Part shown: in pieces, positions 21,512-32,559 of the stretch
Position numbering within the stretch: position 1 is the stretch's first letter
Layout: every line of letters starts with the position of its first letter
Source: Halobacteriovoraceae bacterium
GTDB taxonomy: Bacteria > Bdellovibrionota > Bacteriovoracia > Bacteriovoracales > Bacteriovoracaceae
Reading direction: 5' to 3'
Assembly (NCBI GenBank): GCA_002711995.1
Contig: PASN01000004.1
Coordinates: forward strand, 9,674-73,673
DNA: 64,000 bases
Made by a program: the position numbers and the translations under genes
Notes under the pieces: generated by a model
Told to the model about the DNA's origin: nothing
Databases searched by the model: none
Seen by the model: only the letters and a program-made list of their open reading frames with translations

Positions 21512-21660
21512 GGGCAATCTATATTCAAGAATCGCGCACATAAAAACGGTACCCGTTTTAGTTGGTAATTTGTTTTCAGCATAAGTTTTTGAAATGTCGT
21601 AAAGCTCGATCTAAAAGGCCTGACGCAAATCACTACCCCGAGCGAGAGCTTCTTTATATA

Positions 21661-23007
21661 ATGTTCGACATGCTAAAAGACACTAAAAAATACTCGGTCA
21701 TAGATATCGAAACCACAGGTGGAAGCGCCAGAGCAAACAAAATCATAGAGATTGCCATTATAAACTTAGACGGCGATGAGATCGTGGACAGCTGGTCCAC
21801 TCTTATATATCCAGAAAGAAGAATTCCTCCTCAGATCTCATACCTTACAGGCATTACTGAAGACATGGTGGCGTCGGCCCCAAAGTTTTACGAAGTTGCC
21901 AAAAAGATTGTTGAGATGACTGAAGGACGAACCTTTGTCGCCCACAATGTGCACTTTGACTACAGCTTCGTTCAAAATGAGTTTAGAGAATTGGGCTACA
22001 CCTTCAAGCGAGATCTTCTTTGCACAGTTAGACTTTCTAGAAAGATTCTTCCAGGACTTGCGTCCTACTCTCTTGGAAAGCTTTGCAAAGATGTTGGGAT
22101 CGAGCTTCCTGCAAAAGAGCGTCACCGGGCAATGGGTGACGCCAAGGCCACTGCTACTTTGTTTCAAATGATTCAAGATAAAAACAGTGACGAATTTAAG
22201 GCCATCTACAACAAGCTAAACGCCAAAGTGAACTTTCCTCCATTCTTTGAAGAAAATGACTATGACGAGCTTCCCAATCGTCCAGGAGTCTACTACCTCT
22301 GGGACAAGCGCGGAAAGCTTCTCTATATAGGAAAGGCCAAGGATATTAAAAAGCGAGTGCGCCAGCACTTTATGGTAAAAACATCCAAGACAAAAGAGTT
22401 TGAGTTTAAAAATGGCATGGCAAACATTAGCTTTCAGGAAACCGGGAATGAGTTGGCCGCCTTACTGCTGGAGGCCAGTGAAATTAAAAACCGCTCCCCC
22501 ATGTTTAATAGAGCGCTAAGAAGAAAATATTTTCCATGGTCAGTGATTCCCTATGAAACTAAAGAGGGTGTTCTTGAGTTTCGATGCGCAAAGATTAAAG
22601 ATCCTGACTACCCTATTAGATGCGGCTCAAGAAGAAGCGCGGACGCAACGATTAACAGGCTCTATAAAAAGGCCTTTGGGATTGAGTTTGATCTGCATTT
22701 TGAAAACAATATAAAACTCATGCAAAAGACTCTAGGTGTGGATAACTTCAATAAAGAGCTTAGAAAGAAGTACGAAGAGCTTACCTTTGACGAAGAATCC
22801 TTCCAGATCAAGCTTCCAGGAAGAAACAAAAAAGAATGGTGCTTTATAAGAAGGTATGAGTCTGGCGAGATGCATTTGGTTTATCAAAAGGATGGAGAGG
22901 TGGTTGAGAAGTTTGAAATTGAGGAGACCCCCGACTTAGTCCAAATAACCCTTCACTATCTTAGAAAAAAAGAGCTCAAAACCATTCCCCTGGACGAGAG
23001 CGCATAA
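21661..23007 (+). CDS. DEDDh exonuclease fused to GIY-YIG nuclease domain
   Basis: A 448-residue fusion. Residues about 10-175 form a DnaQ-like 3'-5' exonuclease: Exo I with D15 and E17 (IDIETTG), Exo II around VAHNVHFD, Exo III with ERHRAMGDA (His-Asp pair). Residues about 200-300 hold a UvrC/Cho-type GIY-YIG domain (RPGVYYLWDKRGKLLYIGKAKDIKKRV, read in parts). The C-terminal 150 residues show no known fold. Such fusions occur in several phyla and are linked to DNA repair. ATG 21661 is the first ATG just before the Exo domain; the open frame reaches back to 21562 without a ribosome-binding site. A terminator follows. Confidence 0.85.
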   Translation: MFDMLKDTKKYSVIDIETTGGSARANKIIEIAIINLDGDEIVDSWSTLIYPERRIPPQISYLTGITEDMVASAPKFYEVAKKIVEMTEGRTFVAHNVHFDYSFVQNEFRELGYTFKRDLLCTVRLSRKILPGLASYSLGKLCKDVGIELPAKERHRAMGDAKATATLFQMIQDKNSDEFKAIYNKLNAKVNFPPFFEENDYDELPNRPGVYYLWDKRGKLLYIGKAKDIKKRVRQHFMVKTSKTKEFEFKNGMANISFQETGNELAALLLEASEIKNRSPMFNRALRRKYFPWSVIPYETKEGVLEFRCAKIKDPDYPIRCGSRRSADATINRLYKKAFGIEFDLHFENNIKLMQKTLGVDNFNKELRKKYEELTFDEESFQIKLPGRNKKEWCFIRRYESGEMHLVYQKDGEVVEKFEIEETPDLVQITLHYLRKKELKTIPLDESA

Positions 23008-23036
23008 AAAAGGGAGACATATTGTCTCCCCTTTTT
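23006..23036. terminator. Bidirectional terminator
   Basis: Eight-bp stem (23012-23019 with 23023-23030) and 3-nt loop, with T-tracts on both strands. It lies between the convergent exonuclease and GYD-repeat genes. Confidence 0.9.
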
Positions 23037-23056: not shown

Positions 23057-24259
23057 CTAGAAGAATACTTCTCCAATGATCTTGTTTACATTTTCAGGAG
23101 TTGTCTTGTTATGCTTAGCGATGTCGTTAAGCATAGTTTTAAGATCGTCGCTTTCACCTTTAAGAGACTTGGAAACCGCAACTTCCACATCTTTAAGGTT
23201 TTTACCGATAACCTCTACAGCAAACACGTTGGCGTCTTTCTCAGTCAACTCTCTAGTTCCAGCTAGTTTGTTGAACTGGTGAGCAACAACCGCGATGTCT
23301 TTAGCTCTGTCAGCGCTTAAAGCGAATCTAGCTTTAAGTTGTTGAGACATTTGATTTAGGTAGTGCTGCTCTTTAAAAGAAGCAAGCTTTTCCATATCAA
23401 CTGTTCCATTGTCAGCGTGGTTCATTGCCATGCTGGCCGCAGTCTTAGAGTCAAACTTCTGAAGCTTTGAGTAGTCAATCAAATCGCCGTTAACCATTGC
23501 CGCAAGCTTAACACTTGGGTTTGTGGTTTTAACGCTTGATCCGATCGCAGCATCGTAACCATCATCCCAACCAGCGTCATAGCCATCGTTGTAACCATCA
23601 GTTTCGCCAATTCCGTAACCGTAGTCATAGCCGTCTTGGTAAGCATAGTAGCTGCCATCGTCATAACCGTCGTTGTAACCTTCAGTTGCGCCGTCAGCAT
23701 ATCCGTCTTCTTTGCCTTCGTAGTAGCCTGATGACTCACCATCGGCAAATCCATCGTCATAGCCGTCGTAGTAAGAGATAGCTGAAGCGTCGTCATATCC
23801 ATCGTTATAGCCATCACTTGCGCCTGCAACTCTTCCGTTGTCATGGCCATCATCATAGCCATCCATGTAACCTTCGTTTACATGATCGTCGTATCCAGCA
23901 GTGTAGTTTGGATCGTAGCTTTCTTCGTATCCGTCAGCGTAGCCTTGATCATCACCTCTTGCATAACCTTGCGACCAACCGTCATTGAAGCCAGCTCCGT
24001 AGTTGTCATTTGAAGTGTAGTAAGCTTTACCTTCAGCGTAACCCTCGCCATGGCCTTGAGTTCTGCCTTCAGCGTAGCTAGTGTCATAAGCGCCTTGGTA
24101 AGTTGAAGTGTATCCAGCGTCGTAACCTTCAGAATAGCCTTGGCTCTCGCCATCGGCCGCGCCTTTGGTTTTACCGGCATTGAAACCTTCTTGATACTTG
24201 TCTTTACAACCAGTAACCAAGAAAGCAGATGCCATAAACAATACAATATAATTTTTCAT
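23057..24259 (-). CDS. GYD-repeat lipoprotein B
   Basis: A 400-residue lipoprotein with lipobox VTGC (Cys at residue 18). Residues about 25-240 consist almost wholly of repeated G-x3-G units rich in Tyr, Asp and Gly (GYxDGYDDG type). The C-terminal 150 residues are an ordinary helical domain with DLIDYSKLQKFDSK, NHADNGTVDMEKL, LKEQHYLNQMSQQL-like and RAKDIAVVAHQFNKLAG. The G-x3-G spacing recalls the deca-GX3 motif of the Yae1 N-terminus, but that relation is not claimed. The acidic tyrosine-rich repeat could bind Ca2+ or form a stalk. It lies 14 bp after its paralogue and ends at a bidirectional terminator. Function is unknown. Confidence 0.75.
   Translation of the reverse strand: MKNYIVLFMASAFLVTGCKDKYQEGFNAGKTKGAADGESQGYSEGYDAGYTSTYQGAYDTSYAEGRTQGHGEGYAEGKAYYTSNDNYGAGFNDGWSQGYARGDDQGYADGYEESYDPNYTAGYDDHVNEGYMDGYDDGHDNGRVAGASDGYNDGYDDASAISYYDGYDDGFADGESSGYYEGKEDGYADGATEGYNDGYDDGSYYAYQDGYDYGYGIGETDGYNDGYDAGWDDGYDAAIGSSVKTTNPSVKLAAMVNGDLIDYSKLQKFDSKTAASMAMNHADNGTVDMEKLASFKEQHYLNQMSQQLKARFALSADRAKDIAVVAHQFNKLAGTRELTEKDANVFAVEVIGKNLKDVEVAVSKSLKGESDDLKTMLNDIAKHNKTTPENVNKIIGEVFF
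23540..24187 (-). repeat. Gly-Tyr-Asp coding repeat, copy B
   Basis: Degenerate 12-bp (four-codon) repeats encode G-x3-G units. Copies vary in sequence, so the array is selected at protein level and is not a DNA-level tandem repeat. Confidence 0.7.
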
Positions 24260-24273
24260 GGTTCGTTCCTTTC

Positions 24274-25485
24274 TTAGTAGAAGATCTCAGTTAGTATTTT
24301 GTTAAATTGCTCTGGGCTTGTTTCCATGTTCTGGGAAGCTTTTTCAACCAAAGACTTAAGCTCGCTTGACTCGCCTTTAGCGGACTTTCTTACAGCGCTT
24401 TCAATTTGCGCCATATCGAATCCGATAAGGTCTTTTGAGAAAGACGATGCGTCTTCTGTAGTCAATGCTCTTGAGCCTGCCAATTTATTGAATTGGTGAG
24501 CAGTAAGGGCCACTTTTTGAGCACTTTTCTTAGAAAGGCCAAATCTTGCCTGGATCTGCTGTCCCATAGCATTTAAATAATGTTGTTCTTTAAGAGCTCC
24601 AAGTTTTTCAAGGTCAACTGTTCCACCATCAGCATGGTTGAAAACAATTGTCCCAGACTCAAGAACAGACTTAGAGTCAAACTTAGGAAGCGCGCTGTAA
24701 TCAATTAGGTCAGCGTTAACTTTGCTTGCAAGAGCAACTGCAGGGTTTTTAGACTTGATAGATGATCCGTAATACCCATAATCATATCCGTCATCGTAAC
24801 CATCGTCATAACCAGTGTCATAACCATAGTCGTAACCATCGTCATAACCATCAGCCTCGCCTTGAGCGAAACCATAAACTTCACCGTCGCTATAACCATA
24901 GCTGTAGTTGTCGTTGTAGCCTTCGCTGTGCCCGTGGTCATAACCACTGTCATAGCCATGAGCATGGCCATCAGCGTGTCCGTCATCGTAGCCTCTGTTG
25001 TAGCCGTCAGCAGCTCCGTCAGCGGCGCCAATGCCGTAGTTGTTTGCATATCCGTAATCGTAGCCATCAGCGTTGCCGTCAATGTAGCCTGTGTCATAAC
25101 CGTAGTTGTAACCGTCTACAGAGCCGTCATTGTAGCCATCAGTAGCGCCTGCGCTGCTACCAGATGCATGGCCGTCAGAGTAGCCTTGAGCGAAACCTTG
25201 GGAGTCCCCGTCGGCAAAACCCTGTTGGTAATCTTCAGAAGCAAAGTCTACATACGCTTGCTCGTAACCTTCACCATGTCCTACAACTCTACCGTCTGCA
25301 AAACCATCAGCACTTCCGTCAGCTGTACCTTGAGCTTGCCCATCGGACTCCCCCTCGGAATAAGCGGACGAATACGTGGAATTAAATCCTTGCGTATACC
25401 CGGCGTCAAAGCCTTCGTCGTACTTGGAATTGCATCCAGCCCCTAAAAAGGCGGTGGCCGCCAATACTGCTAGATACTTGTTCAT
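24274..25485 (-). CDS. GYD-repeat lipoprotein A
   Basis: A 403-residue paralogue of the downstream gene, with lipobox GAGC (Cys at residue 18). It has the same Cys-x-x-KY-x-EGF start, a Gly-Tyr-Asp repeat region (about 22-245) and a C-terminal domain that aligns throughout (DLIDYSALPKFDSK, FNHADGGTVDLEKLGALKEQHYLN, VALTAHQFNKLAGSRALT). Residues 215-243 are almost pure GYDxG units. Strong ribosome-binding site AGGAG before the ATG. It is the first gene of a two-gene operon that arose by tandem duplication. Surface location is inferred from the lipobox. Confidence 0.75.
   Translation of the reverse strand: MNKYLAVLAATAFLGAGCNSKYDEGFDAGYTQGFNSTYSSAYSEGESDGQAQGTADGSADGFADGRVVGHGEGYEQAYVDFASEDYQQGFADGDSQGFAQGYSDGHASGSSAGATDGYNDGSVDGYNYGYDTGYIDGNADGYDYGYANNYGIGAADGAADGYNRGYDDGHADGHAHGYDSGYDHGHSEGYNDNYSYGYSDGEVYGFAQGEADGYDDGYDYGYDTGYDDGYDDGYDYGYYGSSIKSKNPAVALASKVNADLIDYSALPKFDSKSVLESGTIVFNHADGGTVDLEKLGALKEQHYLNAMGQQIQARFGLSKKSAQKVALTAHQFNKLAGSRALTTEDASSFSKDLIGFDMAQIESAVRKSAKGESSELKSLVEKASQNMETSPEQFNKILTEIFY
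24750..25419 (-). repeat. Gly-Tyr-Asp coding repeat, copy A
   Basis: Same four-codon G-x3-G periodicity as at 23540. The regularity opens long frames on the other strands (for example a Val/Ser/Ile-rich one at 24862-25446 plus), which are composition artefacts. Confidence 0.7.
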
Positions 25486-25579: not shown

Positions 25580-25608
25580 AAAAAAAAAAACGGCCTGAAT
25601 AGGCCGTT
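25580..25608 (-). terminator. Terminator of the subtilase operon
   Basis: Eight-bp stem (25590-25597 with 25601-25608), GAAT loop, and a run of at least ten T on the minus strand just after it. It lies 8 bp past the subtilase stop. Confidence 0.92.
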
Positions 25609-25615
25609 TGGAATT

Positions 25616-28600
25616 TTATAAAGAAATGTTAAGCTTCACAATCTCGTAATCGCCCCGCTTTTTACACACGGCCATATAGGAATATGAGCCATCCTCATTC
25701 TCATAAGGGTTCATAGGAGCGCAGTATAGAGTTCCATAGTGATTGTCTTTTCTATACTCTCCACAGTAGCGATCCTCATAGCCACAAGTAGTGGGAAGGT
25801 TCACTGACAAAGATGCGGGAGAAACAAGCTCACCATCCAATGCGGCCATAGTGTAGATTCTGTTTCCGCTTAAAGAAGTGGTGTCCATATAGATTGCAGG
25901 ATTAAGCTCGCCCGAGTTTTTAATTAGCACTGGGTAGAAGATATCCGACATGACTTTTCCCGGAAGAAAGCTAAATTTTGTGGTGTTTTGTCTACTTTCT
26001 TTCCATTGTCCATTTTTTCCAGTTAGAAGAAGGATGTCATCTATGGTTTCCAAGAAAACATAAGTTCTATCACCTTTGTCAAAACTTGCAATAAAGCTCA
26101 TCAATCTATCGTATGGAGTGTCCAGCCTATAAACGTAGGTCTTTTCCTCACCCTCGTATTGGTGAGAGATGTTAAGTGTTGAGCTTGTTAAAAAGCCAAC
26201 AAATGAGTCGCCTCTATCTCCATGCTTGATGTCCTTCAAAGGGTGAATAGCATTGCCCACCAATTGAGCTCCGATATAGTCTAAATGGTTAAAGCTTAGC
26301 TCTTCACCGTCAAACTCTCCTTCAACCACTGTTCTTTGGAAGCCTAATCCAAAAGAGAATACAGCTCTAACAATGCCATTTTGAAAGTCTTGATCGCTTT
26401 GCTGCTTTAGAGCAATTAGCTCAATGCCTGTGTCATCTACAGAAATTGCGGGAGCAACAGTCTTTTTAAACTGGTTTCTAACCGATTCACCAAAGTTTCT
26501 GTTCATAAAAGTTCTATAGTTGAAAGTGGCATTTTCTTCGTCCACGGACAACCAATATACTCTTCTTAAAAAACTTTTGTCTTTTGGAGACCAAGGATCA
26601 TCAACTTGATCAACCTCAGGCACTGGGCCTTTGTTAATATAAACCGGTGTTGCCAGGTACTTGCCGTTTGAAAGCTCAGTCTTGACGTACTTTGTAGTCT
26701 GTGGCGTTTCATCCGGTGTGCTTCTGTCATAGGCCATGCTTATGACAGGAAGGTTTGGATGAAGAGGATTCAAATTTTGATCCAAGTATCTGTACTGGAT
26801 ATAAACGTTTCTATCTTCATCAGAGGCAACGGATTTGATTAAAAAATCCATTGTCCCATCGTAGTTAAAATCCATTTGCTGAACGCTCAAAACTTCATGA
26901 GTGTCGTTTAGAACAAGCTCTTTTTGAGCTTCAACCAAGCGACCATCTCTCATTTGAAAGAAGAAAACTTTGTATTGTGTCTTGTCTGATCTAAAAGTCA
27001 GATAAAAGCTTGGATCCGCAACACCTCTCACAGTCTCCACCGTTCTCAAATTTGAATGAGTAGGCCTGTCATCGGTGTTTCTTTTGTTCTCCTCTTTCTC
27101 ACTGAACTCTCTTCTAAAAGAGATAAGCGAGTGGGTTCTATCTTTGAACTCGATTGGAAACACTTCTTTATCTTCAATCGCGTAAAGATCTTGAGCAAGA
27201 GTTACTTGATGAGTGTACTCTCTTTGCGCCATGCCCTCAGTTTGAACACTAACTTTAAACTTGAACATATTGGGAGCAAGCTTGTTGGTGACAATCCCTG
27301 TTACTGGAATTGATCCAACTTGACCTGGTTTCATAGGTTTTAATTTAAATTCTTTTTTCTCAATCTCAATGCCATCTGTTACAGATTCTAGAGCTATCAC
27401 AACCTCGCCGGATGTCTTGCCAAAGTTCTTTAAGTTCAAAACAAATTGTCTAAACTTGCCTGTTCTTGAGTCAAACACGGCCTCTGACATTTGTTTAAAC
27501 ACTGGCTTCACACTTGGAGCTGCTTTTAACTTCAGCGCTTTTCCAAGCTGAACGGCGCCATGCATGGATTTAAAGTCATCAGGTCTTTCAAGAGAGCTGT
27601 CAAGAAGCCTTCTTTGAACTTCATTGATGTGCATTCTTGGGTAGACCCCTTTAATCAATGCCGCAGCCGCCGAAACAAACGGGGCCGCCTGAGAGGTTCC
27701 ACTCATAATATCGTAGCCTTGGATATTAAGTTTCAGAGGAATGAAAGAAGTTGGTACTGTTGATGCAATTTGATCTCCTGGCGCCAAGATATCAACTTCC
27801 GCTCCATAGTTTGAGAACCTGGAAACTTTGCCGTCAATATCAATAGAGCCAACACACATAACTTCTCTATAAGCGCATGGGAAAATGCTCGCATTTGTGT
27901 TGTTGTTTCCTGCTGCGGCCACAACAAGAACGTTGTTTTTAACCGCATGCTTGATGGCCATATCCAGGTAGCGAGTGTTCATAGTTTTAGGCCATCCAAG
28001 ACTTAGATTGATTACATCAACATTTCTGTGGACAGCGTAGAAGATGCCTTTTGCAATTCTTCTAGAAGCGGCCCTGTATTTTAGCTTGTTTCTCTCGTCG
28101 GATTCATCAACCTTTCCAGTAACCTTAATAGGCAAGATCTTAATTTTGTCACTTACACCGGAAATCCCAAGTTTATTGTTTCTCTTAGCTGCAATGATTC
28201 CTGAAACATGCGTTCCATGTCCTGTGTCGTCAAACGGATGAGCATCGTACATGTAAGAGGTGCTTGCAAAGTTCCCCCCGTAACAATCTCCGCGAAGACC
28301 ATTTTTGTCTCTGTCTTCCATCGTTCCGGTCTGGGGCGTGCCATTGTCACACTCCACATCATTTTTATAGATCTGGTCTTTTAGTTCAGGGTGGTCGAAG
28401 TCAATCCCCATATCGATTACTGCAACCACTGGAGCTTTCTTTAAGTTTGCTTCGATAGACCCAATGCTCTCTGCCCAGTCAATGTCTTGTCCGTCTCTTC
28501 CCTGAACCTCTTCAGGGCCGCCATTTGGCATTTGAGCGGAGGTGACCTGTCCTTGATTTCTAAGTCCCCACTGGAAAGGATACAGCATGTCATCCGCATC

Positions 28601-28897
28601 CATGATGGTTTTATCATTGGATTTAATTTCAAAAAGCTCAACGCTATGGTCAGCTTCAACAAGTTTTACAAGTTTATGGCCTTCTAAGGCCTTAAGTGAG
28701 GCCTTTGTTGCTTCCACTTCATATAGCCTGTCAAGATAACCATCGCCAAAAGGCAGAAAACGCTTGGCGTTTGAAACGCCATCAATCTTGTTTAAAGATT
28801 GAAGTTCGGTTTTGCTTAGCTCCCTAGTGGTCTCCACCACGTAAACATTGGCAAAGACAGAGGAGGATAAAAGGATTGTCCAAATTAAAGATTTCAT
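25616..28897 (-). CDS. Exported subtilisin-family serine protease
   Basis: A 1093-residue exported S8 protease. The signal peptide ends near residue 16 (VFA-N). A propeptide-like segment (about 17-90) precedes the catalytic domain, which holds D162 (AVIDMGID), H227 (GHGTHVSG), the oxyanion Asn in AAAGNN (about 331) and the nucleophile S402 (SGTSQAAP). The remaining 650 residues include a CARDB-like stretch (about 460-570) and FG-GAP/VCBS-like pieces (MDFNYDGTMDFLIK). ATG 28897 follows GGAGG and overlaps the TAA of the upstream gene (TAATG). It probably cleaves envelope or prey proteins, perhaps its operon partner. Targets are unknown. Confidence 0.92.
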   Translation of the reverse strand: MKSLIWTILLSSSVFANVYVVETTRELSKTELQSLNKIDGVSNAKRFLPFGDGYLDRLYEVEATKASLKALEGHKLVKLVEADHSVELFEIKSNDKTIMDADDMLYPFQWGLRNQGQVTSAQMPNGGPEEVQGRDGQDIDWAESIGSIEANLKKAPVVAVIDMGIDFDHPELKDQIYKNDVECDNGTPQTGTMEDRDKNGLRGDCYGGNFASTSYMYDAHPFDDTGHGTHVSGIIAAKRNNKLGISGVSDKIKILPIKVTGKVDESDERNKLKYRAASRRIAKGIFYAVHRNVDVINLSLGWPKTMNTRYLDMAIKHAVKNNVLVVAAAGNNNTNASIFPCAYREVMCVGSIDIDGKVSRFSNYGAEVDILAPGDQIASTVPTSFIPLKLNIQGYDIMSGTSQAAPFVSAAAALIKGVYPRMHINEVQRRLLDSSLERPDDFKSMHGAVQLGKALKLKAAPSVKPVFKQMSEAVFDSRTGKFRQFVLNLKNFGKTSGEVVIALESVTDGIEIEKKEFKLKPMKPGQVGSIPVTGIVTNKLAPNMFKFKVSVQTEGMAQREYTHQVTLAQDLYAIEDKEVFPIEFKDRTHSLISFRREFSEKEENKRNTDDRPTHSNLRTVETVRGVADPSFYLTFRSDKTQYKVFFFQMRDGRLVEAQKELVLNDTHEVLSVQQMDFNYDGTMDFLIKSVASDEDRNVYIQYRYLDQNLNPLHPNLPVISMAYDRSTPDETPQTTKYVKTELSNGKYLATPVYINKGPVPEVDQVDDPWSPKDKSFLRRVYWLSVDEENATFNYRTFMNRNFGESVRNQFKKTVAPAISVDDTGIELIALKQQSDQDFQNGIVRAVFSFGLGFQRTVVEGEFDGEELSFNHLDYIGAQLVGNAIHPLKDIKHGDRGDSFVGFLTSSTLNISHQYEGEEKTYVYRLDTPYDRLMSFIASFDKGDRTYVFLETIDDILLLTGKNGQWKESRQNTTKFSFLPGKVMSDIFYPVLIKNSGELNPAIYMDTTSLSGNRIYTMAALDGELVSPASLSVNLPTTCGYEDRYCGEYRKDNHYGTLYCAPMNPYENEDGSYSYMAVCKKRGDYEIVKLNISL

Positions 28898-31800
28898 TAA
28901 ATTAGCCTCCCTAGCAGCCACGAAGCAAAAAACTCACCTTTGGTCATGCCTAAAAACTTTCTTATTCTTGCGATAGGGCCTTCAATGTCCTCAGTTCCCT
29001 TTCTACCAAAGGAATTGGAAATTATTTTCTTGTCACCGTTTGGATCTCCAACTCTAAACCCGTCGATACGAGCGATGGCCAACATATTGCCGCCTCCGCC
29101 AACCATTTTTCCAATCCCTTCCATAACAAGTCCTTCCTCAATGGCCTCAACCATCTCCATAGTGTATTCGGCCATCTCATTTTGGTCGCCTTCTTCCAAC
29201 GCTTGAAAATACTTTCTCTTGTTGTGGGCAAACCTGTAGTATCCACTTCTTTTAAGAGAGTCCTCCCAATTGAGCCTTCTATTTCTTTGTCTTCTTCGGT
29301 TGTAGACAAAGATGTCTTCCGCTTCTTCCTCAGACATCTCAATAAAGTGCTTAATGCCGTTCTCATATATAAAGAAGTTCACATTAATATTGTAGAGAAA
29401 GAGCTCTTCTGTTTGAGCAAGAACCTCTTCCTCCATAAATCTAAAGGCATAGCGTTTTTTAATTTTTCTCAAAAGCTCAATGGCATCGTCTTTGCTCATT
29501 TTCCAGCCGTTGTAGATTCTTGAAAGCTTGGCGTAAGGATTTTCAACAAAACCACTCTCACCTTTTATGCCTTCATAGGTTAAGATTTCGTTTTCGGCCT
29601 TGCCCATATAAGTGTAGCCAGGATTTCCTCCACTAAAGCTTGCCACGTTGAATGTTTTATCCATAAGCTTTCCAGCAAGAAGCTCTATAAGATCTTTTGC
29701 ATAGTTCTCATAGTCTCTTCCAAAATTGTTGCCAATAACACTTCTATACAAGTCTTTCGTGTGTCCATCTGGAGAAGTGATGGAGATGTTGTCGTACTGA
29801 TCAAGCCAGTTCCACTTCCAAACAAAGATGCCAAATCTTGAATCATCCTCTTCAAAGTCGTGTATTAGAACATAAGGATTCTCCACTTTCTCTAAAGACT
29901 GGGTTGAGTTGGACAGAAAAGCGCTTCTTAAAGCTTTCAGGTAGTCCAGTTGCTTAACGTTGATTTCCCCTTTATAAGCAGATTTAATTGGAACTTTGTG
30001 AAACTTGGTTCTTGCCCTTCCGCTTGTGGACTTAAATCTAAATTTCATAATGGGAATATACTTCTCCACACTTACTGAAGGCTCAATTGCCGTTACGTTT
30101 CCAAGATCTTTATAGACATGAACTTCTTCCTCACTTGCTCTAAAGATGTGAAGTCGACTTAAAACGTTTTTGCTTGCGGCGATGTTTACACCAATATTTG
30201 AAACTTCGTACAAGTTCATTCCAACGCCAATACCTCCAGAGCCGCCAAACGAATCCGTGATGATCATAGACTCACCCACGGCAATGTTTTCATCTATTGC
30301 CTGAAGCGCTTTTTCAATGGCCAACTCATCGTCTTGCTCTTTGAGTTCTGAATAATGCAGGTTGTGCAGATCGTTTAGCTCGTCCACTTTAGTCAAAAGG
30401 GCGATAGTGTCCGAGTAGTTCTCATCTATAAACTCTTCTCTCTGGGCCTGCTCTTCGCAGTCCTGGCCGCATTCAGTATCCACGATGTAGTCTAGGGAAC
30501 CTTTTAGCTTTGTATGATAATCCACTAGAGACTTCCCTATAGGGTAAATCTCTGAAAGGCCGTCCTCGCGAACTATATTGATGTAGTTTTCTTTAAGATC
30601 ACTATGCAAGCTCACAATCTTTTGAAGCTCAACTTCAACGTCAGAAGCTAAGAGGTTTGATGCATGAAGGTTTGTAATTTCATCCAACAACTCGTTGGCC
30701 TTTTTATACAACTTGCCGTTTCTTCTTATTCTCATGTCATCAGATAGGTTTTGATAGAATTCTTTGGCAATTGGATCAAGAGCATTGCCGTACTTATTCT
30801 TTAGGTATGGCACCATCATATTTTTAAATGGATATTTCAATGCCTTCTCAACAGATGTGATAGGCCTTACGTGAGCGTAAGTTCTGCTTAAATAAAGATT
30901 GGCCCTCACATTGAGATCCACAGGAACATACTGTCTAACCTCACCGGCAGCGCTCATCACAGTGTCGCCGGTTTTCGTGTAAATACCTGTTGCTCCGCCA
31001 AAAACACCTGCCGAGATACTTCCCCCAACAGTGTCAACAAGCTGGATAAGGTTGTCGGTACCCATATAGCTTCCGGCCACAACCTCACGCCCAACGATAA
31101 GATTGCCTCGAACGGTGGGATACATGAAAAAGTCCACAGGCAACTTGCCTGTGTCTCCAGTGGTTGCTGTCTTTGCAACTTCGTTGGCAAGGTCCTCTTT
31201 AAAGTCAACGATCTTATCTTTAATGTTGTTTCTCAAAAAGGAGTTGGCCGTCTTAACTAGAACGTCAATACCCACAGAGATTTCCTTTGACTTAAAGAAA
31301 GCTGTCATCTCTGAAGTTGAAAGTGGAGACTCAGGATCTGGAATTTTAAAACGTCTAGCGTAGCCGTCATAGAATTCTTTAGTAATTTCTCCGTCCACAA
31401 GATCGTCTTGATTGCTGATGGTTGAGTTCACTGAAAGATTCACGTTGTCGACGCCAAACAGAAATCCCAAATGATTTCTTCTGCTTTTAAGTTTTTGCAA
31501 TAATAGAAGCTTTACCGACTCAGGAAGGTACGTCGCGTCCACGATATCCCTCCAGTCTTGTTCATTTAGCTTCATGATTCTTCTTATAATCCAAACTGCG
31601 TCATCTCTTGAGCAATTATAGTTTGCAGCGTGAGCAAACTTTAAGCTTACATTGTCCGAGAAGCGTCGCCCGATAGTCCAATCCATAAGATTGATAGACT
31701 CTGGTGCATCCACAAGCGCGAATGGAACCACAAGAGAATCATAAATTCTTTTACCTTGTGGAATGTCTTCAGAGAGGTAACCCTTGGCCAGATTGTGTAA

Positions 31801-32559
31801 GAACTCTTGATCCTCCATAACGGCAACATCTTGAACCACAACGGACAGATCTCCCTGACTTAAAATCCACCTGTCAAAAGAGCCAGCATTGTTAATGGAA
31901 ATGTTTTTTATAAAAAGCTTTTTATCCTCTTTATTTGGAAACATTATTTTAAGTCTAGGCACATACTTAACTGGCGGCACCTTGTAGCCTATTTTTCTAA
32001 GAAGAGCTTTTCTTAAAAAGAAATTGTGCACAGACTTGCTTAAGAATAAAGAATACTGCTTGGGAGTCCCGTAACGATTGTCTTTTGTAACAGTGACTCT
32101 GTAGTTTCCAAGCCTTGCCCATCCCTCTGAAACATAATCGACTTTGTCTAAATCGTTTAAATCGAGCTGGTCATGATCGGAAAGGTCAATGTTTCTATAA
32201 TCCTCAACAGGCCCACCACTATAGATATGTGCTGATTCATGATCAATAGCAGGCTCCAGGTCAGCTAAGGTCCACTGACATCTTGTCTCGCTATGTCTTC
32301 TTTTATAATAAGCGTCCGCTTCAGATGAAGTAAGAACATCCCCTTTGCGGATCCCCTCTCCACAGTCATTGCTGTCACAAATTAAGTCTGTTGCCGGCAT
32401 GTGCCCATAGGCCAGAGGAACGGTTCCTTTAATTGGATTGTAGGCCAGAAGTTTTTCTTGCTCACAGCTGCCATGTCTGGTCACCGAAGTGCCAAACTCA
32501 GAGTCCTGAGCGTAAACATTTAGTCCTGAAAGAATAAATGCCAATAAAAGTAGCCTCAT
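28897..32559 (-). CDS. 1220-residue exported protein, unknown
   Basis: No family is recognised. The signal peptide is cleaved after VYA (about residue 17). The mature protein is mixed alpha/beta with a Cys pair near 37-70, a glycine-rich stretch at about 760 (DSFGGSGGIGVGMNLYEV), another near 510 (GGSISAGVFGGATGIY), helical coiled segments around 610-740, and a basic patch (FVYNRRRQRNRRLN) near 1120. The Gly-rich and strand-like parts could form membrane-inserting or barrel sections. It is the first gene of an operon with the subtilase, translationally coupled by TAATG, so the protease may process or be delivered with it. A toxin or predation factor is speculation. Confidence 0.7.
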   Translation of the reverse strand: MRLLLLAFILSGLNVYAQDSEFGTSVTRHGSCEQEKLLAYNPIKGTVPLAYGHMPATDLICDSNDCGEGIRKGDVLTSSEADAYYKRRHSETRCQWTLADLEPAIDHESAHIYSGGPVEDYRNIDLSDHDQLDLNDLDKVDYVSEGWARLGNYRVTVTKDNRYGTPKQYSLFLSKSVHNFFLRKALLRKIGYKVPPVKYVPRLKIMFPNKEDKKLFIKNISINNAGSFDRWILSQGDLSVVVQDVAVMEDQEFLHNLAKGYLSEDIPQGKRIYDSLVVPFALVDAPESINLMDWTIGRRFSDNVSLKFAHAANYNCSRDDAVWIIRRIMKLNEQDWRDIVDATYLPESVKLLLLQKLKSRRNHLGFLFGVDNVNLSVNSTISNQDDLVDGEITKEFYDGYARRFKIPDPESPLSTSEMTAFFKSKEISVGIDVLVKTANSFLRNNIKDKIVDFKEDLANEVAKTATTGDTGKLPVDFFMYPTVRGNLIVGREVVAGSYMGTDNLIQLVDTVGGSISAGVFGGATGIYTKTGDTVMSAAGEVRQYVPVDLNVRANLYLSRTYAHVRPITSVEKALKYPFKNMMVPYLKNKYGNALDPIAKEFYQNLSDDMRIRRNGKLYKKANELLDEITNLHASNLLASDVEVELQKIVSLHSDLKENYINIVREDGLSEIYPIGKSLVDYHTKLKGSLDYIVDTECGQDCEEQAQREEFIDENYSDTIALLTKVDELNDLHNLHYSELKEQDDELAIEKALQAIDENIAVGESMIITDSFGGSGGIGVGMNLYEVSNIGVNIAASKNVLSRLHIFRASEEEVHVYKDLGNVTAIEPSVSVEKYIPIMKFRFKSTSGRARTKFHKVPIKSAYKGEINVKQLDYLKALRSAFLSNSTQSLEKVENPYVLIHDFEEDDSRFGIFVWKWNWLDQYDNISITSPDGHTKDLYRSVIGNNFGRDYENYAKDLIELLAGKLMDKTFNVASFSGGNPGYTYMGKAENEILTYEGIKGESGFVENPYAKLSRIYNGWKMSKDDAIELLRKIKKRYAFRFMEEEVLAQTEELFLYNINVNFFIYENGIKHFIEMSEEEAEDIFVYNRRRQRNRRLNWEDSLKRSGYYRFAHNKRKYFQALEEGDQNEMAEYTMEMVEAIEEGLVMEGIGKMVGGGGNMLAIARIDGFRVGDPNGDKKIISNSFGRKGTEDIEGPIARIRKFLGMTKGEFFASWLLGRLI

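Follow-up and report, generated by a model that had tools for sequence, protein, structure and literature searches.

Tandem GX3-repeat lipoprotein-like proteins of matched repeat length are encoded beside a BIG-subtilase module in a Halobacteriovoraceae bacterium

Repeats of the GX3 type have been described in Yae1, in Lto1 and in FliH. Yae1 and Lto1, which belong to the cytosolic Fe-S assembly machinery of eukaryotes, are reported to bind each other via deca-GX3 motifs of about 40 residues; the GX3 glycines are required for the complex, and a C-terminal Trp of the Lto1 type (Phe in some organisms) serves CIA binding (PMC4523923). The FliH repeats have been described with Tyr or Phe at more than 45% of x1 positions, mainly Glu, Gln or Ala at x3, and m = 0-12, and the same source called the structure of long GX3 repeats unresolved in 2009 (PMC2674601).

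Here, we analyzed a window of 64,000 nucleotides from a Halobacteriovoraceae bacterium (contig PASN01000004.1), the whole stretch to which all coordinates refer unless a locus handle is given, and focused on two ORFs of the minus strand that sit exactly inside 23057-25485. The upstream ORF, P0002 (24274..25485, 403 aa, the 'A' member), and P0001 (23057..24259, 400 aa, the 'B' member), which starts 14 bp downstream of P0002, have the same build: a signal-peptide-like start leads into a repeat of about 222 residues, which is followed by a C-terminal domain (CTD) roughly 160 residues long. In P0002, the signal peptide with its lipobox-like cysteine (residues 1-18) lies at 25432..25485, the GX3 repeat (residues 19-240) at 24766..25431 and the CTD at 24277..24762; the same segments of P0001, with the same residue numbers for signal peptide and repeat, lie at 24206..24259, 23540..24205 and 23060..23539. 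These segments were delimited by the position of Cys18, by the repeat count and by alignments, together with AlphaFold2 for the CTD of P0001. The two proteins are 47% identical overall and 53% identical in the CTD. An earlier note on this DNA, made from the letters alone, had described two adjacent paralogues with about 215 residues of G-x3-G repeat between a lipid anchor and a conserved C-terminal domain, and this description was borne out, with the anchor standing as a sequence feature; the strand and the adjoining genes were not mentioned there.

In both proteins, Cys18 follows a hydrophobic start in a lipobox-like context, as judged by eye and by pattern. All 52 proteins of the set used for tree and length analysis have a cysteine close to the N-terminus that follows G, A, S, N or T, this being the condition for entry into the set. 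The lipobox-like N-termini suggest that P0001 and P0002 are lipidated and would reside in a membrane. On the other side of P0001, a palindromic GGGAGAC...GTCTCCC hairpin (23012-23030) precedes a convergent gene (21562-23007, plus strand) whose product has an exonuclease domain (RNase_T) and, after it, a GIY-YIG domain; the hairpin is a possible shared terminator of P0001 and this gene.

The regularity of the repeats was compared with that of 2000 composition-preserving shuffles per repeat. P0001 carries 35 and P0002 42 G-x3-G pairs, while the shuffled sequences averaged 9.7 and 11.0 and reached at most 19 and 21, respectively. Moreover, 47 of the 50 glycines in the P0002 repeat fall in one register modulo 4. 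Pfam Yae1_N (PF09811, cut-off 27.5 bits) matched P0001 at 43 bits and P0002 at 50.1 bits, in four stretches each, and the match covers the repeat alone. Across 2032 GX3 units from 52 proteins, a set that excludes the lipobox-less fragments G118b, G123b, G108, G130, G126 and G133 A, x1 was Tyr or Phe in 59% and x3, the residue before the next glycine, was Asp in 44%, and register runs reached 34 glycines when gaps of up to 12 residues were allowed. Each repeat contains 43 aromatic residues, and its net charge is about -43. The x positions are rich in Asp, Asn, Ser and Thr, with low intrinsic helix propensity, and proline accounts for 60 of 12,071 repeat residues (0.5%) versus 3.4% in BIG and 4.4% in SUBT, the neighboring proteins described below. 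Given that a DNA tandem repeat was detected only at 24768-24852 (default score), the amino-acid pattern is not merely a recent DNA repeat. To judge from its sequence, the repeat is a GX3 array in the style of FliH and Yae1, with an Asp-rich composition. A conserved in-register interruption of the type GYERAKxYFASADYxxGF was also considered as a hinge; the strict pattern fits just 21 of the 52 proteins, and no claim is made for it.

The pair resembles Yae1 and Lto1 in its GX3 repeat, in the Yae1_N match over the cut-off and in having two GX3 partners. However, the repeats here are 149-328 residues long, follow a lipobox and are joined to a separate CTD. No Trp stands at the C-terminus: behind the unrelated CTD, P0001 ends in FF and P0002 in FY, where the Lto1-type residue is Phe in some organisms. 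Yae1 and Lto1 are cytosolic and, to our knowledge, lack a signal peptide, whereas P0001 and P0002 have the hydrophobic start and the lipobox-like Cys18. The likeness to FliH and YscL lies in the dominance of Tyr and Phe at x1 and in the NCBIfam FliH models, which match the repeats with 66.9 and 75.2 bits at best, short of the cut-off of 180. In contrast to the FliH repeats, x3 is typically Asp, the register runs to 34 glycines instead of m = 0-12, and the x positions are rich in Asp, Asn, Ser and Thr, with a low helix propensity and a strongly negative net charge; P0001 and P0002 would also be secreted rather than act as components of flagellar export. The repeat type is known, but a long, length-matched, lipobox-bearing pair beside a protease module was not found in the literature searched.

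Structure prediction, which the earlier note had proposed, gave no confident fold for the repeats and a helical CTD for P0001. AlphaFold2 was run on P0001 with P0002 as the sole other alignment row and on P0002 alone, and returned pLDDT block means of about 21-41 over the repeats, where inputs this shallow would demonstrate neither order nor disorder. The CTD of P0001 was predicted to be helical with block means mostly of 64-86 (two sequences), and that of P0002 was mostly below 70 (single-sequence input). The low proline content and the held register argue for a regular structure of the repeats; the low helix propensity and the net charge make them less suited to a regular hydrogen-bonded structure. 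The GX3 repeats may adopt a helical fold. When the P0001 model was compared with PDB structures, the best Z was 4.2, at which no fold could be named. In a PDB profile search with the CTD, Gogy (E 0.003), which is titled as a de novo design, and Nomur (E 0.029) were not taken as real matches, and a GHMN-repeat pyridoxal kinase matching P0002 was set aside as low complexity.

We further studied the distribution of the CTD and the repeat. With a 17-row CTD profile, matches at E <= 1e-10 were found in 55 of 129 family genomes, which answers the search for this domain in other genomes that the earlier note had called for; a search at class level, over an equal number of genomes, ended in an identical tally. 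The GX3-CTD architecture was read in 31 genomes and 36 loci among the 129 family genomes searched, some of these loci being cut by contig ends. Of the two halves of the refutation offered in advance, disorder of the repeats and lack of conservation in relatives, the second thus failed. Many other CTD proteins are lipoprotein-like with different N-termini; proteins of this sort occur near BIG, and a poly-Gly linker often stands directly after the lipobox in them. Single-copy GX3 genes also exist (e.g., G012, G025 and G135). In Pfam, 17 CTD members gave only weak and scattered matches, one or two members each, as judged by E-value and, for the first member, also by cut-off, and the CTD is, as far as such searches can tell, outside any curated family over its cut-off here. 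A scan of named genomes with P0001 returned one locus, in an uncultured delta proteobacterium and over residues 3-236 only, and neither P0002 against phage records nor alignment A2 against viral contigs gave a match. In three CTD proteins (L039, L042 and L045) a zinc-protease segment (HExxHxxGFxH) replaces the GX3 repeat, and Pfam matrixin was over its cut-off in two of them, L039 and L045.

We compared repeat lengths, taken as the distance from the lipobox cysteine to the CTD, between the members of tandem pairs. In 19 complete pairs this distance ranged over 149-328 residues and correlated between members with r = 0.993; the twentieth pair, G133, was left out, as no cysteine was found in its A member, which starts at a contig edge. 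The mean within-pair difference was 3.84 residues versus 58.3 with shuffled partners, and none of 20,000 shuffles was as low. Mismatches of 22 residues were seen in G122, of 10 in G014b and of 8 in G006. The A member of G014b (L122:4508-5704) combines a normal repeat with a CTD that has diverged strongly (31.8 bits; tree branch 3.33). In genome G074 (L100 and L101), a GX3 pair of 219/220 residues coexists with one of 327/328 residues, and hence the distance is set by the pair rather than by the cell. Neither BIG nor SUBT was present in the 15 kb read around the longer of these pairs.

A CTD tree of 56 rows was used, from which G130 and G126 were left out. At six loci (G000, G019, G074a, G074b, G078 and G079), the B members grouped in one clade with support of 99/93, and the A members in a second one with 90/75, the latter not strongly supported. 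Within these six old pairs, two of which are in one genome, the members agreed to within 5 residues in each case, with a mean difference of 2.33 that was reached or undercut in 4 of 720 permutations, and the length changes correlated at 0.998-0.999 (independent contrasts, two topologies, unit branches). Joining the members of the 327/328 pair or of the 294/289 pair on the tree was rejected (p-AU 6e-9 and 0.00016), these pairs having been picked for the topology test after the tree was seen. Gene conversion as the source of the matching is disfavored, since A/B similarity shows no clear excess inside pairs: repeat identity was 41.9-56.5% within the six pairs and 39.7-52.9% (mean 46.4%) between A and B members taken from different genomes, with G078 lying above the between-genome range. 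Other pairs appear young, and the members of G119 and those of G133 adjoin in the CTD tree.

Upstream of the pair, the minus strand encodes SUBT (25616..28921, 1101 aa), an exported S8 subtilase (Pfam Peptidase_S8, 170.8 bits), and BIG (28897..32559, 1220 aa), an exported protein that overlaps the start of SUBT. D170, H235 and S410 of SUBT, which we take to be the catalytic triad, were invariant in 13 of 13 aligned proteins. BIG is without a known family: Pfam gave nothing over cut-off, NCBIfam and the PDB (profile, up to E 1) gave no match, and 13 BIG members returned only weak, scattered Pfam matches, one or two members each. In all 35 BIG-centred loci, BIG and SUBT are adjacent and usually overlapping, and BIG was found in 103 of 129 family genomes (E <= 1e-15) and in 216 of 368 phylum genomes (E <= 1e-6). 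The dentilisin-type surface protease complex consists of PrtP with PrcA and PrcB. In both cases the gene of an S8 protease stands together with genes for other envelope proteins; the match of SUBT to PrtP, at 96.9 bits, is under the NCBIfam cut-off of 300. The best NCBIfam match of SUBT was the type VII secretion mycosin protease (TIGR03921), at 189.6 bits against a cut-off of 278.75. As a candidate counterpart of SUBT we also considered Bd2269, which is reported to be a prey-lytic subtilase of Bdellovibrio (PMC12546842).

Of the GX3 loci, 26 offered 4 kb or more of upstream sequence, and the association with SUBT and BIG was assessed in these. SUBT lies within 500 bp in 18 of them, and BIG is present in all 18. 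Eight loci have no SUBT next door; BIG is on the other side in G007 and G143 and on the same contig in G118, and the remaining five (G024, G091, G074b, G076 and G014b) have neither SUBT nor BIG in the stretch read. Outside the family, 14 loci were selected on BIG only, and 12 of them have a CTD gene within 6 kb of BIG. Hence the BIG-SUBT module has the CTD lipoprotein as its third member, a variable one, and the GX3 proteins are the form it takes in one lineage. In the family, 9 of 21 BIG loci have a CTD match within 6 kb, several of these loci having been chosen for a nearby CTD match and the CTD gene of G023 having been missed by the ORF caller. BIG occurs in 52 of 55 genomes with the CTD versus 51 of 74 without it (Fisher p = 0.0003, a value uncorrected for kinship). 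A terminator-like hairpin with a T run (25588..25609, minus strand) stands between SUBT and P0002, so the P0002/P0001 pair may be transcribed on its own.

Taken together, the length covariation and the proximity to BIG and SUBT suggest that P0001 and P0002 tether or space the protease at the cell envelope. We propose that paired lipid-anchored spacers of set length hold docking CTDs at a BIG-subtilase complex, and give this reading a probability of about 0.4. From the linkage and the length matching, both of which are observed, we infer the following arrangement. The N-terminal cysteine would fix each lipoprotein to a membrane, and the GX3 segment would span a set distance and present the helical CTD. 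By analogy with Yae1 and Lto1, the two GX3 segments probably run alongside each other, with their glycines as packing contacts, which would account for the equal lengths of the two repeats. Judging by the gene linkage, the secreted BIG and subtilase proteins, whose genes lie upstream, are the probable docking partners of the CTDs, which would thereby keep the protease a defined distance away from the membrane. Against this stand the lack of a confident AlphaFold2 fold for the repeats, their x-position composition with its low helix propensity and net charge, unlike that of FliH, the 22-residue mismatch in G122, the absence of SUBT beside 8 of the 26 GX3 loci, with BIG missing too in five of these, and the hairpin that splits SUBT from the pair. 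Since single-copy GX3 genes exist, a heterodimer is not always possible.

The same repeats could instead be flexible acidic tethers that allow both paralogues to reach one target, and their lengths would then match without direct contact. A composition rich in Gly, Asp, Asn and Ser, the pLDDT of about 21-41 and the poly-Gly linker that other CTD lipoproteins carry at the same place, after the lipobox, all fit such a chain. However, a flexible linker would need neither a strict four-residue register over 200 residues nor Tyr or Phe at x1 and a proline content of 0.5%, and an agreement in length to a few residues exceeds what such a chain would call for; this explanation appears rather unlikely to us. 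The earlier note had named a Ca2+-dependent stalk and an adhesive or metal-binding surface among the possible roles. A stalk or spacer is indeed the best reading of the repeats, although that note contained neither their FliH/Yae1 nature nor the protease neighborhood nor the length matching. A surface that binds cations through Asp-rich tetrads (Ca2+ or Mg2+), or adheres to surfaces or prey through its Tyr residues, would make use of the net charge of about -43, the 43 aromatic residues per repeat and the Asp at x3 in 44% of units. The RTX nonapeptide motif is GGxGxDxUx. Pfam searches at E <= 1 with both proteins gave Yae1_N as the sole match, and neither this motif nor any other curated Ca2+-binding repeat or family; adhesion alone leaves the equal lengths of the old pairs unexplained. 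A binding surface appears quite improbable.

The length matching itself might carry no functional meaning and be a by-product of duplication, gene conversion or common repeat-expansion rates. Unequal exchange is common in repeats, and some pairs, such as G119 and G133 with their adjoining members, are young. The old A/B pairs are hard to explain in this way: all six match within 5 residues, recent duplication was rejected for both pairs tested (327/328 and 294/289), and A/B similarity is without clear excess within pairs, on a sample of six such pairs with two in one genome. We consider a by-product quite improbable as well, and paired spacers at the protease stay the preferred reading. A more specific form of it, in which the pair is a heterodimeric molecular ruler whose two matched GX3 rods stand a secreted-protease machine at a fixed, evolutionarily tunable distance from the membrane, is unlikely in our estimation; its rods would greatly exceed the repeats of FliH and Yae1 in length, and its protease machine would be phylum-wide and undescribed in the literature searched.

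Long GX3 repeats are a rare motif, and pairs that covary from about 150 to 330 residues offer a natural experiment on the side-by-side pairing of GX3 segments. The CTD lipoprotein-BIG-subtilase module is common to much of the phylum, and its function is not described in the literature searched; it offers a way into an envelope protease system, BIG and the CTD being outside curated families over cut-off here. Among the SUBT proteins, some (L102:7319-10207, L104:6721-9600 and L105:6110-9040) have a mature-type S8 domain (QW motif) from about residue 32, after the signal peptide, whereas others, including that of the window (25616-28921), have about 80 more residues before the S8 domain. Possibly the short SUBT proteins have no propeptide and depend on a different folding helper or inhibitor, for which BIG is a candidate. 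The window's own genome also carries a second BIG-SUBT-CTD module (L051, G000:C8:18000-34000), in which the CTD protein is a short Tyr-rich lipoprotein of 187 aa.
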